A stretch of 64,000 nt of DNA, from positions 62,001-126,000 of the forward strand of contig JNEN01001260.1 in NCBI GenBank assembly GCA_000697355.1. Reading direction: 5' to 3'. Numbering within the stretch: position 1 is the stretch's first letter; each line of letters begins with the position of its first letter. A program made the position numbers and the translations under genes. Below, piece after piece: positions 57,972 to 64,000 of the stretch. Source of the stretch: Syncephalastrum monosporum B8922 (taxonomy: Eukaryota; Mucoromycota; Mucoromycetes; Mucorales; Syncephalastraceae). Under the pieces are notes generated by a model. That model was not told the DNA's origin. It saw only the letters and a program-made list of their open reading frames with translations, and searched no databases.

Positions 57972-58602
57972 TTAAGCGGTCGCAGGTTCGGCCTTGTCTT
58001 GCTCAACCTTTTCTTTGCCACCCAAACTATGGCACGTACAAGACGATTCAGTTGAATATCATACACAACAGGGCGTGGAAAGTCGACTTACTGGTTGTAG
58101 TTGATATAACGGTAGCCCTGAACCAACTGAGCAACCTCGTTCGTTGCGTGACACGCAAAGAGAAGATAGTTCTTAGGCTGGACGGCAAGGGCAAAGCGCA
58201 TGAACAGACCCGAGTAGACGCAGAGAGCTATGCAGAAAGGTTAAATAAGTGTTATATAAGAGCCAAGCAAGACAACATACCGGCAGTCATGTTGCCCGAA
58301 ATGTAAGCGGGGTCCTTCTTCCAGTCAGCAATGGCAGCCAAAGGAATACCCCAGTTAGCAACCGGGCCCCAGAAATGCTATCGGAGAGGACAGTAATGAG
58401 CCTTTTGAATATATAAACAAACGAACATTATAACGAGATTGATTGACATACGGTGCTGTAAACGTGAAAATAAGGACAATGAGTACACATTCCATAGCAT
58501 AACATAGATAGAGTTTCGTTACCTCATCAGGTAGTTTCTGAACTCCTTGGATGAGAGCTTTTGAATGAAGCGGTTGGCAACGGATCCTGAGGCCTGCGAC
58601 AT
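57972..58602 (-). CDS. MPC1: Mitochondrial pyruvate carrier subunit 1 (MPC1)
   Basis: Inner-membrane subunit that, as a heterodimer with MPC2-type proteins, imports pyruvate. Five exons (58602-58523, 58455-58452, 58377-58281, 58227-58092, 58026-57972) give 123 residues in frame. The sequence reads [80 protein letters not shown] and [32 protein letters not shown], the NMT helix and [10 protein letters not shown] are family invariants. Exon 2 is 4 nt long (CACC), yet without it the invariant STH cannot be encoded. The C-terminal tail is acidic ([11 protein letters not shown]). The gene converges on NOC2 with 137 bp between stops. Confidence 0.93.
58452..58455 (-). other. 4-nt microexon (CACC) of MPC1
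   Basis: Minus strand: acceptor TTTACAG, then CACC, then donor GTATGT. Exon 1 ends ATGAG (58523) and exon 3 starts CATTTCTGG (58377). AG + CACC + CAT gives Ser-Thr-His of the invariant LMSTHFWGP. Introns are 67 and 74 nt. Confidence 0.85.
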
Positions 58603-59486: not shown

Positions 59487-60289
59487 CTAGGCGACAGCAG
59501 CAGCCTTTCTAATCTCTGCTTGAGCTGAGAGATGGTTAATGACGATGGGGCGGTAGAATTCTAGATCAGGCACTTTAAGATCGACCACTTTGGCCGCGTC
59601 GTCCCAACGACGAAGTTGGACTTTTTGTTCGTAGAGTGGATCTTTTTCAAATTCAGCAACTTGTTCAGGAGTGAAAGGGCCGCCCTGAGAATGAACAATG
59701 GAAAAATGGCGTGTGTATTAGCGAGTCGAGTCTGGCAAGCACTTTTCCTCCACTTGATTATTGATTTGCTTACCTGATACTTTAGAGACAGTTTGCTTGC
59801 TCCGCTCAAACTTTCGTAGTAGCTCGCATCTTTCCCAGTTAGATAACGCTTGACCGGCACGTGTGACTCCACTAGCTGGGCCACCTTTTCCGAGAAGCCG
59901 AAATTTCGGAGGAGCTCAGCCCCAATGCGCTCATGCCCTTTCACGCCAACGCTGATCTTTTTCTTCGATTCTCCAGTCTCGTCACCTTCCACACTGTCTG
60001 CGTCGCAGAGCATTTGGTCGGCCGCGGTCGAGAACTGTCCAATGTCGTGCAAAAGTGCTGCCAACACCGTCTCGTCGTCCGCCTCTGATTGAAAGAACAA
60101 GTGATCAGAAATTCCATCGGCGTTCGTGATGCATGAAATAGAGAAATATTAGGAATAGATCTTACTGGCTTCGACAGCTTGGGCAGCCGCTTGGAGACTA
60201 TGCTCCAGCTGAGAGATCTTTTCGCCAATGTATCCTTGTTTGCTGCCTTCGATAAGGACATTGAACACGACGTCGGCGGTCTTTTCCAT
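59487..60289 (-). CDS. PhnZ-like HD-domain mixed-valent di-iron oxygenase
   Basis: Three exons (60289-60166, 60084-59774, 59684-59487) encode 210 residues. Bacterial PhnZ cleaves 2-amino-1-hydroxyethylphosphonate to glycine and phosphate with a di-iron centre. From remembered PhnZ numbering, its metal ligands H34, H58, D59, H80, H104 and D161 correspond to H30, H54, D55, H92, H116 and D173 here. Its active-site residues Y24, E27, K108, S126 and R158 correspond to Y20, E23, K120, S138 and R170, with matching spacing apart from one 16-residue insertion (about 70-85). Motifs: YIGEKISQLEHSLQ, ALLHDIGQF, GHERIGAELL, ESHVPVKRYL, QGGPFTPEQVAEFE, LRRWDDAAKV. The usual HDIGH has become HDIGQ (position 58). 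Other HD oxygenases (TmpB, MIOX) are alternatives. It is divergent from a PhyH-type dioxygenase gene. Confidence 0.82.
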
Positions 60290-60463
60290 ATTGTAGTTGC
60301 TTGAGCACGAGTGTGCAAGTGAATGGGCGCGGAAGTGAGTGGGATAGAGCGAAAAAGGGTTCAAATCAGGGTTTACTTAAAGAAGAGGGCAACGGGCGGA
60401 TCTAGCCAAAAGGAGTCAAAAAAGACTTGCAGGGCATCCGCGGATTGCGTGTTTGCATGCACA

Positions 60464-60469
60464 CACGTG
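60464..60469. promoter_or_regulatory. CACGTG E-box
   Basis: CACGTG within ACACACGTGTCC, the core recognised by bHLH factors such as Pho4/NUC-1 of the phosphate-starvation response. One such palindrome in 441 bp can occur by chance; regulation by phosphate is an inference. Confidence 0.35.
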
Positions 60470-60660
60470 TCCCACTGTATCTGTGAATTTCAAGCTCCAG
60501 GTCTGGGACCCTACCCTATCCATCATTATTGGGAACGTCCGTTCCTCGGGATTCCTTGGGTCCAATAGCAGATCCCATGCAAACGCGTCTGTGGGCTCGT
60601 GTACACGCGTGTGGTCATCGTTCGTTACTCATAAACACGAGCGCGGACATAGCACATGAA

Positions 60661-60667
60661 TATAAAA
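60661..60667 (+). promoter_or_regulatory. TATA box
   Basis: TATAAAA in AATATAAAAGGACC, 70 bp upstream of the PhyH-dioxygenase ATG. Confidence 0.55.
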
Positions 60668-60730
60668 GGACCCCGCACTTGATCGTTCGCTGACCTAACA
60701 CAACTAAGTATACCAAGTCACTGATCAACA

Positions 60731-61725
60731 ATGGTTGTCACCCAGAATCAAGAACCCTACGTGCTGTCCGAGGCGCAGCTGCAAGCTTACGAGGATCAAG
60801 GTTTCTTGCTCATTGAAGACTTCTTCTCCCCTGAGGAACATGCCACGCTCAAGCAATACTGTGCTGAGTTCCAGAACTGGGGTAAAGAAAAAGGCAAATG
60901 GATGCAGTATTACGAGGTGAACACCGTGACCGGCGAGGAACAACTTTGCCGTACGGAGAACTTTTCGCCTTACCACGAGGGCATGGCCAACTACATCAAC
61001 AGTGATCGCCTGCTGAATGTTCTCAAGAAGCTTCACGGTGAAGAATATGTCCTGTTCAAGGAGAAGGTCAACTACAAGCTTCCTGGCGGTGGAGGTACTG
61101 TATTGCAACCAAAGGCATGGCATATGCTCATAGTATTTTCGATTAGGATTCCCGGCCCATCAAGACTCTCCTGCTTTTACACAGTTTGGTCAAGTTTCCC
61201 ATATGACCGTCATGTTCACGATTGATCCTACTACCAACGAAAATGGATGTCTCGAAGTCGTCCCTGGCTCGCACAAGAACTCTTATGAGAAGGGTATCCT
61301 ACCTCAGGAAAAACACGACGGCTCTATTTCGCGTGACTGGTGCAAGGAGAATAACTGGATACCGGTTCACTGCAAAGAGGTATGGAATATGGAGCTGACA
61401 GGACGAGTTATTAAGACATAGATGTATCAATAGGGCTCCATTCTGATCTTTGGTGCTTACTTAGCCCATCGCTCAGGTGACAACCAAACAAACAAGTCGC
61501 GTGTGGCGGTGTACCTGACGTATAATGCGGCGCGCGAGGGGAACATGCGCGATACCTACTACAGTGACAAGCGCAAGCTTTTCCCGCCGTCTTATGAGCG
61601 TGAAGAGGGCAAGGATTACAGTAAGTACAGAGATACCGGAGCACTTCGGCGGGAAACTAAATGTGATGCATCCCCTAGGTGAAGGTGCTGTTATTTACAA
61701 CCTAGCAACTCCCATCAAGTCGTAG
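60731..61725 (+). CDS. PhyH-family Fe(II)/2-oxoglutarate dioxygenase, candidate PhnY-like
   Basis: Four exons (60731-61094, 61147-61379, 61434-61620, 61679-61725) give 276 residues, about the size of bacterial PhnY. The double-stranded beta-helix iron triad is H126 and D128 in FPAHQDSPAF plus H211 in AYLAHRSGDN. R222 (NKSRVAVYLTYN) is the expected 2-oxoglutarate anchor. Other PhyH features are QGFLLIEDFFSPEEHATLK, VNYKLPGGGGFPAHQD and ENGCLEVVPGSHKNS, with a C-terminal TYN...DTYYSDKRKLFPPSYERE. PhnY hydroxylates C1 of 2-aminoethylphosphonate to make the substrate of PhnZ; the head-to-head PhnZ-like gene makes this role plausible. By sequence alone it could be another small-molecule hydroxylase. 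Confidence 0.8.
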
Positions 61726-62237
61726 ATAGTTTCAGTGCGAAATACTCTTCGCTTTTTGGGAATTTTGAGCTGCATAGGATAAACTTTCAGTGTACTTATC
61801 ATCGCGTCATTGGAGTCCGGATCCTGTGTTTCATGACATGGTGACGGTGTAACCGTGTCGTGGTCTACAGAAGCCTTCTACGTGCGTAGAATATCGAACC
61901 GCTATTTCGTTTGATTTCGCTGCACTTTCATTGACAATAATTCATCGGTATGTATGATGCTTGCTTATAATAGCTAATCACGTCTCCGTATTACCGAGGA
62001 ACATAGATTTACCTTCATCGTAGCCTAGATAAACAGATTTCAACACAGTTTGCGCGTGTTTAAATCAGAAAATTACAGCCAATAGAGTAAAATACAATAA
62101 CTTTATTACACGGGGCATGCAGGAATGGAAGGTGCCCTGAAAGAAGAACTCGATGTGACTGGTTACGGAAACGCTTTTTGTTCGTGTAAATCTAAAAATT
62201 TGGTATAAAAAACACAAAGAAATCGACCATTGTGGTT
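61726..62237. other. Spacer between PhyH gene and APC4
   Basis: 512 bp between convergent genes; nothing recognisable beyond 3' flanks. Confidence 0.5.
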
Positions 62238-64000
62238 TTAACTGTCCATCAAACAAATCAGGGCCTGGGAGTTGGACGCCACCATGCCGAGTATCCGGCG
62301 TTTTGGTCGTCCGTTGGCACCGAGAACAATGTTCGTCATCCGCGGAAGCTCCATTGTACGTGCAAATTTTGGCTGCCATAAAAAGATAATAGTTGTATGA
62401 GAATCGGATGATCGTTCTACGTCTCCTCTCCTGACCGAAACAGATGGTCCTTCTCTCAGCTTCTATTTGATAATTTCTTACCTCGACGTGTACATTTTTA
62501 TCCAGTGTCATGACGTTCATTTTACTATAGGCATAGGAGCCCAGGTCCAATGTTGCAACAGTCGAGTTTTCGTCTGTTATGGAATGGAAGAGTGAGCTGA
62601 CTGCTTTTTTTCTCTACTTCGCGCTGCCTTACTGTCTTCAGCAGTGCCATAGACAAGGCCCAGACTATCTTGGTCAAAGAATTCCATATCATGGATGCGT
62701 ATCTTGCTCAACTTAATTTGTACACCCTCGATAGTGTCAGCTCCGGACATCCGTACAAGTGTCACTAGAGAGAATCGGGGATGAGCTGAAGCTGTGTATC
62801 CTTCCCATTTGCATTGCTTACGTGTTTCGTCAACTGGGTCTCGTTTTGCAAAGGCATAAAATTGTATGTCTTCGTCTGGAGCACAGGCCACGACATCCCG
62901 TCCAAGAGCATCAATATTGTGTGGAGCAGCCTGAACGGGTATATCGATAGACTTCACCACAGTAGTGTTTTGTGTAACGATTGTGGCAGGCTGTGTCATG
63001 GTCCTCATGCAAGTGTCCTTAAGATTATAAAACGTCTGCCTCAGACTTGTCGCATTTTCTAATTAATGTTTTAGGGTAAATTTTACAGGCTATAGCTTCA
63101 TAATAATATACCTGGATCATTTGATGGGCCGTCAAAGAAATGGAACAACCCGTCTGAAGCAAAGTAGTTGTTAAGATAGTCGATAATCGGCCACGGTGTC
63201 TTTGTGAATATCGGCTTTTCATTGTCCAAGTTAGGTTGATCCATTTCGGATCGTCCAGTTTCTTTCTTATCAGCGTATTTCTGAGTTGCTGAACAAGTTA
63301 AAGTTGAAGTGTTAATGACCTTGTCGTGTAACATCACACGCTTCCTTACTGTGGATGATCCAAAGGATGAACTCGTCAAATAATGTCGATGCTTTGGTGA
63401 CCTCCGCGAGATACGAGTGGAGCTTTTTCGACAACATTTTTGCAGAGTGTATGGTTTGAAAGACCTCATCGATGTTGAGGAGACCAGTGTATTTTTGGAT
63501 ACTACATGAGAAAAGTGGGTTACTTTAAGACAGATTATGACAAATAATTAGGAGCTTACTGCATGCTGCACCCCTTCCAGTAATCAAGGTAGACCAATAG
63601 CCTATCACAAGCTGGTATAAGATACGCGCTTGCGATAGTACGGCATGTCATATAGCTATGGGCGGTCCGAGTTTGCCACATGCGCACTTGCTGTATGATG
63701 CATGCGTGAGTTGACTTGTCATTGGCTGTGTAAGGATGTACTTACTCGCTCGGACACTTTCTCAGAAAAGTATTCTTCGACTGCATCACACGGTCTACCT
63801 AGAGCCAGAAATCCAATCATCTCTAACTCTGGCATAGCCGTACCTTCGTCTGATTACGTATTAGACACACATATATATTTAACGACGACCAAGCATACCG
63901 TCATGGTTGATGATAGAGCTTGTTATCTTTTCTGCATTCTGGTTTGCCATAGTCAAGACGGTTCTGTGGTGCTGCTCAAGAAGCTTGAAACAATATGCCA
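62238..64000 (-). CDS. APC4: Anaphase-promoting complex subunit 4 (APC4), 5' partial
   Basis: Scaffold subunit of the APC/C ubiquitin ligase that drives exit from mitosis. The gene enters from the right edge, so the N-terminal WD40 part is outside. Visible is the helical APC4 long domain: PELEMIGFLALGRPCDAVEE, YFSEKVSER, IPACDRLLVYLDYWKG, LHSYLAEVTKASTLFDEFIL and TKTPWPIIDYLNNYFASDGL. The C-terminal WD blades include SLGLVYG and VATLDLGSYAYSKMN. The final exon (62372-62238) encodes MELPRMTNIVLGANGRPKRR and the end ALICLMDS. A probable 57-nt intron near 62765-62821 has no stop and would add 19 residues if retained. Confidence 0.72.

Follow-up and report, generated by a model that had tools for sequence, protein, structure and literature searches.

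The window analysed here is a 64-kb stretch (64,000 nucleotides) of contig JNEN01001260.1 from the mould Syncephalastrum monosporum B8922. It holds two divergently transcribed genes whose start codons are separated by 441 bp (Table 1), and the exon coordinates bear out the head-to-head arrangement given in a preliminary description of the locus. The minus-strand gene comprises three exons and two GT..AG introns, 81 and 89 nt long, and its splice model translates in an uninterrupted frame to a 210-aa protein with an HD domain (the HD protein). The plus-strand gene has four exons and introns of 52, 54, and 58 nt, and likewise yields an uninterrupted product, a 276-aa dioxygenase of the PhyH family (the PhyH protein). 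CACGTG occurs 13 times in the window and once between the two genes, where ~0.09 copies are expected; the single intergenic copy is weak evidence, and that it is a Pho4-type regulatory site is only our guess.

Table 1 Features of the divergent gene pair (window coordinates).
Feature	Position	Strand	Content and basis
HD (PhnZ-like) exon 1	60166..60289	-	Start codon, YxxE loop (Y20, E23), first putative iron ligand H30; splice model, PhnZ alignment
HD (PhnZ-like) exon 2	59774..60084	-	H54-D55, Q58 (PhnZ His62), H92, H116, K120, S138, Q145; splice model, PhnZ alignment
HD (PhnZ-like) exon 3	59487..59684	-	GGP of QGGP, R170, last putative iron ligand D173, stop codon; splice model, PhnZ alignment
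Shared intergenic stretch, 441 bp	60290..60730		Presumed bidirectional promoter
CACGTG E-box-like site	60464..60469		Weak; 1 in 441 bp
TATA-like element TATAAAAG	60661..60668	+	70 bp before PhyH start codon
PhyH (PhnY-like) exon 1	60731..61094	+	Start codon; splice model, genome match
PhyH (PhnY-like) exon 2	61147..61379	+	H126, D128 of putative iron site; splice model, alignment
PhyH (PhnY-like) exon 3	61434..61620	+	Iron-site H211, R222 (putative 2-oxoglutarate Arg); splice model, alignment
PhyH (PhnY-like) exon 4	61679..61725	+	Stop codon; splice model, without a separate match in the genome search, presumably too short

The neighbour to the left of the HD gene is a mitochondrial pyruvate carrier, of which one exon (PF03650; window 58252-58377, minus strand) was matched. 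Seven of the ten other long open frames in the window match Pfam at E ≤ 0.001, with AMP-binding/Mug62, DMAP-binding, PB1, WD40, and BAF250 among the families found, and the neighbours of the pair read as ordinary eukaryotic genes. Beyond the PhyH gene there is seemingly a further multi-exon gene (62100-64000, minus strand), APC4-like by eye, none of whose five pieces matched a Pfam family. When the whole genome (27.5 Mb in 198 contigs) was searched, the HD protein matched its own three exons only; for the PhyH protein, one weak match elsewhere (26.8 bits) joined those to its own exons. Nearest to both proteins among the matches listed is Syncephalastrum racemosum (91% identity for HD, 95% for PhyH). 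The preliminary description had taken the fungal-style introns to speak against contamination or very recent transfer. The introns, the eukaryotic neighbours, and the clade of fungal relatives described below agree on this point and speak against bacterial contamination or recent bacterial transfer, which we rejected and which is also disfavoured by the closest of the matches listed, all from Mucorales and Umbelopsis.

The HD protein finds PhnZ as its best match by sequence among solved structures (E = 2.6e-39, 138 bits), with TmpB next (E = 1.1e-26, 97 bits). Profile scores fell under the respective cut-offs for TIGR03276, the phosphonate degradation HD-domain oxygenase (171 bits against 214.6), NF052439, the PhnZ1 of the methylphosphonate route (146.7 against 300), and NF049941, the TmpB equivalog (127.3 against 300). 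The TIGR03276 cut-off is likewise missed by a PhnZ fragment (189.9) and by our candidate sequence for PhoF (169.7), a fungal enzyme considered further below, and is therefore indecisive on membership.

A PhnZ layout with matching spacings had been proposed for this protein from its motifs. All of the named residues are indeed present: Y20xxE23, H30, H54-D55, H92, H116xxxK120, S138, QGGP at 145-148, and R170xxD173, which correspond one to one with Y24, E27, H34, H58, D59, H80, H104, K108, S126, Q133, R158, and D161 of PhnZ and supply the full H..HD..H..H..D series of metal ligands (H30, H54, D55, H92, H116, and D173). The spacing part of the proposal needs a correction, since 10 of the 11 successive intervals are equal and the span from D55 to H92 is 37 residues where PhnZ has 21, so that this loop carries 16 extra residues. 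Apart from PhnZ His62, 12 ligand and contact positions were mapped, and their residues are kept in all 38 chosen eukaryotic sequences (a selected set that includes the EukProt entry P0061) and in all 57 bacterial partner sequences; across a 240-row HD alignment, each is found in at least 231 rows and the remainder are nearly all gaps. YxxE has been summarised as a substrate loop that is missing from MIOX (PMC8177086). The motif also occurs in every one of the 57 HD partners examined from bacteria, those of Poribacteria among them, so it does not on its own single out an aminophosphonate, and we dropped it as proof of an amine substrate.

The fold gives the same picture. An AlphaFold model of P0001, which is 91% identical to the HD protein, has a pLDDT of 91.5, and a fold search with it returned PhnZ at ranks 1-7, TmpB at ranks 8-10, and MIOX next at E 0.046. 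Against 4n71_A, PhnZ with bound 2-amino-1-hydroxyethylphosphonate, the TM by target was 0.93. Phosphohydrolases appear only far down this list, and a generic HD phosphohydrolase was rejected on this ground. Profile, residues, fold (through the P0001 model), and tree thus agree with the PhnZ-like assignment first made from the motifs, and on sequence and model together we class the HD protein as PhnZ-like.

The PhyH protein scored 112 bits on PF05721 (cut-off 22) and 186 bits on NF052437, the methylphosphonate hydroxylase (E 7.7e-55, under the cut-off of 500); the next NCBIfam dioxygenase family, ectoine hydroxylase, reached 55 bits. Scores on NF052437 were 172.8 bits for the PhoF candidate, 209 for a relative from Legionella, 222 for one from Deltaproteobacteria, and 318 for a truncated one from Poribacteria. 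These scores therefore point to a phosphonate-hydroxylase-like PhyH enzyme outside the methylphosphonate equivalog. The HxD...H iron triad and the 2-oxoglutarate Arg noted in the preliminary description are intact, as H126, D128, H211, and R222 are unchanged throughout two alignments, one of 19 and one of 38 chosen relatives, with R222 as the putative 2-oxoglutarate-binding residue. A model of the PhyH entry P0121 (pLDDT 93.2) resembles proline hydroxylase H11 (top of the list), GriE, PHYHD1, and EctD; PhnY has no structure among the solved matches, whether by sequence or in the P0121 fold search. Ectoine or proline hydroxylase was considered and rejected for this protein: H11 tops the fold list, yet the sequence profiles favour phosphonate enzymes. 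The earlier PhnY-like assignment is upheld by NF052437, which lies far above the other NCBIfam dioxygenase models, and by the tree.

One PhnZ residue is replaced in the HD protein, a departure absent from the preliminary description: Gln58 (codon at window 60035-60037, minus strand) stands for His62. Gln occupies this position in 35 of the 38 chosen eukaryotic sequences, the exceptions with His being Chromera, Marasmius oreades, and Ramularia; it occurs in none of the 57 bacterial partners, all of which have His. Over the full 240 rows, the counts are Gln 119, His 111, Arg 7, Leu 1, and gap 2. The PhoF candidate (P0250) also has Gln, and should P0250 prove identical to the enzyme described in the PhoF paper, the replacement of His does not abolish function. 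With the other 12 mapped residues kept, Gln58 reads as a lineage mark, and the eukaryotic substitution could alter the pocket.

Synteny in relatives had been named beforehand as a point on which the proposed module might fail. In early-diverging fungi and dictyostelids, 23 PhyH entries could be checked because an HD entry of the same organism was also listed, and 18 of these share a contig with it, an outcome in the module's favour; the count draws on 60 HD and 43 PhyH organism-named entries among the best 120 of 1240 (HD) and the best 120 of 480 (PhyH). Locus tags are adjacent in Umbelopsis nana (02361/02362), Apophysomyces (002827/002826), Podila (009173/009174), and Heterostelium (05240/05239). 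The five off-contig entries belong to Phycomyces blakesleeanus and Coemansia spiralis, whose tags suggest different assemblies, Basidiobolus ranarum, which has short contigs, Coemansia RSA 2336, and a second Martensiomyces copy.

A comparable partnership is seen in prokaryotes. Bacterial and archaeal genomes were scanned with the PhyH alignment and the best 80 of 416 confirmed stretches were kept, in which HD partners were sought with P0105 and the PhnZ stretch and, in a repeat, with the window's HD protein; 57 loci had a partner each time. Of these 57 bacterial pairs, 56 lie within 230 bp; 53 are on the same strand, three are adjacent and divergent (L015, L037, and L039), and in the remaining one the HD gene is 4.3 kb off on the other strand. 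No HD partner was seen in the other 23 of the 80 loci, for some of which the flanking DNA is short on one side. A PhyH gene accompanied by a PhnZ-type gene is thus present in the window, in fungi and dictyostelids, and in bacterial loci.

Among the 351 proteins fetched, 71 carry both domains in a single polypeptide, 30 in the order PhyH-HD and 41 as HD-PhyH; the sample is non-random because one search started from a fusion. The PhyH-HD fusions with organism names are all fungal, and the sole named HD-PhyH protein comes from a Pseudomonadales MAG. The PhyH tree, with 53 unfused, 9 HD-PhyH, and 8 PhyH-HD rows, needs at least eight changes of fusion state, and some of the unfused entries may be gene-model artefacts.

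In the HD tree, a single clade of 38 rows (100/97, starred) takes in the fungi and dictyostelids and has the PhoF candidate inside. The PhyH tree places early-diverging fungi and dictyostelids in a clade of 16 rows (98/90, starred), which includes the metagenome protein P0152 and the EukProt entry P0149, and unites the same groups with Dikarya in a clade of 38 rows (89/91, not starred). The window's proteins fall with Mucorales in both trees, and the clades fit common inheritance of the pair within fungi. Ancestry shared with PhoF accordingly carries a star for HD and none for the joint PhyH clade. The preliminary description had counted a dioxygenase clade with another known substrate as evidence against its reading; the PhyH protein groups instead with PhoF, in that joint clade. 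A quick 85-row PhyH tree set Dikarya apart from early-diverging fungi, and the careful tree joins both after dropping 15 of the 85 rows; the careful HD tree drops 9 of 74, and several of the dropped rows are long branches. Partner swapping in Dikarya was abandoned on the strength of the careful PhyH tree. The nesting of dictyostelids within fungi was also set aside as evidence of transfer, as a fungi-only clade without them was not rejected (p-AU 0.416 for HD and 0.155 for PhyH).

Phosphonate breakdown is summarised in the literature as known mostly from bacteria and cryptic in eukaryotes (PMC10574752). The same review reports PhoF of Fonsecaea multimorphosa as a fused PhnY-PhnZ enzyme that acts on 2-aminoethylphosphonate (AEP) and 3-aminopropylphosphonate, and as a fourth version of the oxidative pathway, located in a fungus. 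Geomyces pannorum, also a fungus, is reported to have a hydrolytic AEP route (PMC3905195), and a diatom to use AEP (PMC9765203). The idea of a eukaryotic phosphonate module, as first put forward for this locus, therefore keeps its PhnY/PhnZ-like assignment and loses some of its novelty: with PhoF already in print (PMC10574752), an oxidative route for phosphonates in fungi was known before, and the original PhoF paper may already mention unfused fungal pairs. In the titles and abstract openings listed, with few subscription journals among them, we found no description of such a pair in Mucoromycota. What is added here is the unfused divergent form (its orientation read in the window's own genome), its spread, its probable common fungal origin, and the Gln in place of PhnZ His62 in eukaryotic sequences.

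Comparison with characterised systems places the pair near, and apart from, each of them. PhoF is one polypeptide with PhyH preceding HD, whereas the window has two intron-bearing genes on opposite strands. Its candidate sequence is 41% identical to the PhyH protein and 46% identical to the HD protein, a distance that would be enough to leave room for a changed substrate. PhnZ, from the uncultured bacterium HF130_AEPn_1, shares the fold and 12 of 13 compared residues with the HD protein; it differs in being bacterial, in having His62 where the window has Gln58, and in one loop that is 16 residues shorter. TmpB of Leisingera caerulea resembles the HD protein in its HD oxygenase fold and has the YxxE loop as well, but it is a weaker match than PhnZ (97 versus 138 bits). 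TmpA is not known as a PhyH-family protein and belongs to a different dioxygenase family. The methylphosphonate enzymes GmPhnY and GmPhnZ of Gimesia maris were compared through NF052437 and NF052439, the models named after that system, which the window pair matches but far under both equivalog cut-offs (186/500 and 146.7/300).

We consider that the two genes probably encode a two-step oxidative phosphonate degradation pathway, most likely acting on AEP, with catalysis and substrate both inferred. In the chemistry reported for such enzymes, as summarised in PMC8177086 and PMC10574752, a dioxygenase hydroxylates the carbon beside phosphorus and an HD oxygenase cleaves the C-P bond, which converts AEP to glycine and phosphate. 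By this precedent, the PhyH protein would act as an iron/2-oxoglutarate dioxygenase and hydroxylate the carbon next to phosphorus of an aminophosphonate, most likely AEP, to give an (R)-1-hydroxy compound. The HD protein, as a mixed-valent di-iron oxygenase, would then bind this (R)-1-hydroxy product and cleave its C-P bond with O2, releasing phosphate, plus glycine when AEP is the substrate. AEP is favoured because PhoF, in the neighbouring clade, acts on it. An exon-by-exon profile search of the own genome, in which only the best candidates were scored and split genes could escape, gave no match to TIGR02320 (PEP mutase) and none above cut-off for TIGR01422 or TIGR02326, the best sub-cut-off scores being 36.4 bits for phosphonatase/PhnX and 25.2 bits for PhnW. 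The pair is hence the only recognised route among those searched, which points to the use of outside phosphonates and suggests a scavenging role.

The same two steps might serve mainly another aminophosphonate, such as 3-aminopropylphosphonate, N-methylated AEP, or an unknown natural one, in place of AEP. PhoF accepts 3-aminopropylphosphonate (PMC10574752), and the TmpA/TmpB type of the pathway is described as able to use N-trimethyl AEP (PMC8177086, PMC10574752). The modest identity to the PhoF candidate (41-46%) and the His62-to-Gln change, which could reshape the pocket, lean the same way. Nonetheless, PhoF does act on AEP, TmpB is the weaker match by both sequence and fold, and TmpA comes from a different dioxygenase family; we regard such a shift of main substrate as unlikely, if deserving of attention. 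A methylphosphonate pathway as in Gimesia maris, running through hydroxymethylphosphonate to formate and phosphate, would be suggested by the sole named phosphonate hydroxylase model that the PhyH protein matches. That label is simply the nearest at hand, because an AEP-specific PhnY model is absent from the NCBIfam hits of the PhyH protein, and its 186 bits (cut-off 500) lie near the PhoF candidate (172.8) and far below the truncated Poribacteria relative (318). Poribacteria and Actinomycetota rows also stand apart from the fungi in the quick PhyH tree (97, starred), and we judge methylphosphonate a highly improbable substrate.

In a further reading, the pair would serve to detoxify or process an antibiotic or herbicide-type phosphonate and not to supply phosphorus for nutrition. 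One CACGTG site is the only tie of these genes to phosphate starvation, which gives that idea some footing, but the occurrence of relatives across many fungal groups and dictyostelids seems better suited to a common natural substrate, and we hold detoxification to be the least probable explanation.

Oxidative degradation of an aminophosphonate, probably AEP, thus remains our preferred reading, and it can be extended to the history of the pair. We are evenly divided on whether oxidative C-P cleavage is an old and widespread fungal trait, in which an early ancestor of the fungi already carried a linked, unfused PhnY/PhnZ-like pair (or fungi and dictyostelids came to share it early); the linked pair would have been retained in Mucorales and their relatives and fused several times later, with PhoF as one outcome. 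The His62-to-Gln change would mark the branch and may adjust which substrates its enzymes accept. If the two enzymes act in the proposed way, Mucoromycota moulds and dictyostelid amoebae could free phosphate from aminophosphonates, and the eukaryotic share in the soil phosphorus cycle would be larger. Being unfused, the pair would also allow each enzyme to be compared with PhoF on its own, and the Gln is a natural substitution to probe in a family of oxygenases of which few have been characterised.

Several observations were made in passing among the relatives. Bacterial PhyH loci that lack a visible HD partner (for example L054, L058, L067, L069, and L081) come from Gammaproteobacteria including Lysobacterales, Alphaproteobacteria, two cyanobacteria, and others, and their enzymes may hand the hydroxylated product to another enzyme. 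Legionella supplies the highest-identity rows among the best 80 bacterial loci, and the careful PhyH tree puts it with other bacteria. Eleven of the 80 loci, the top five scores included, are from Legionella, Coxiellaceae/Coxiella, Facilibium, and Francisellaceae (L010-L014, L016, L017, L020, L023, L025, and L027), groups tied to protozoan or animal hosts; an HD gene lies just downstream in nine of the 11, and none was found in L017 and L027. Finally, the PhyH relatives P0203 and P0234, in the rotifer Adineta and in Capsaspora, cluster together (100/100, starred).
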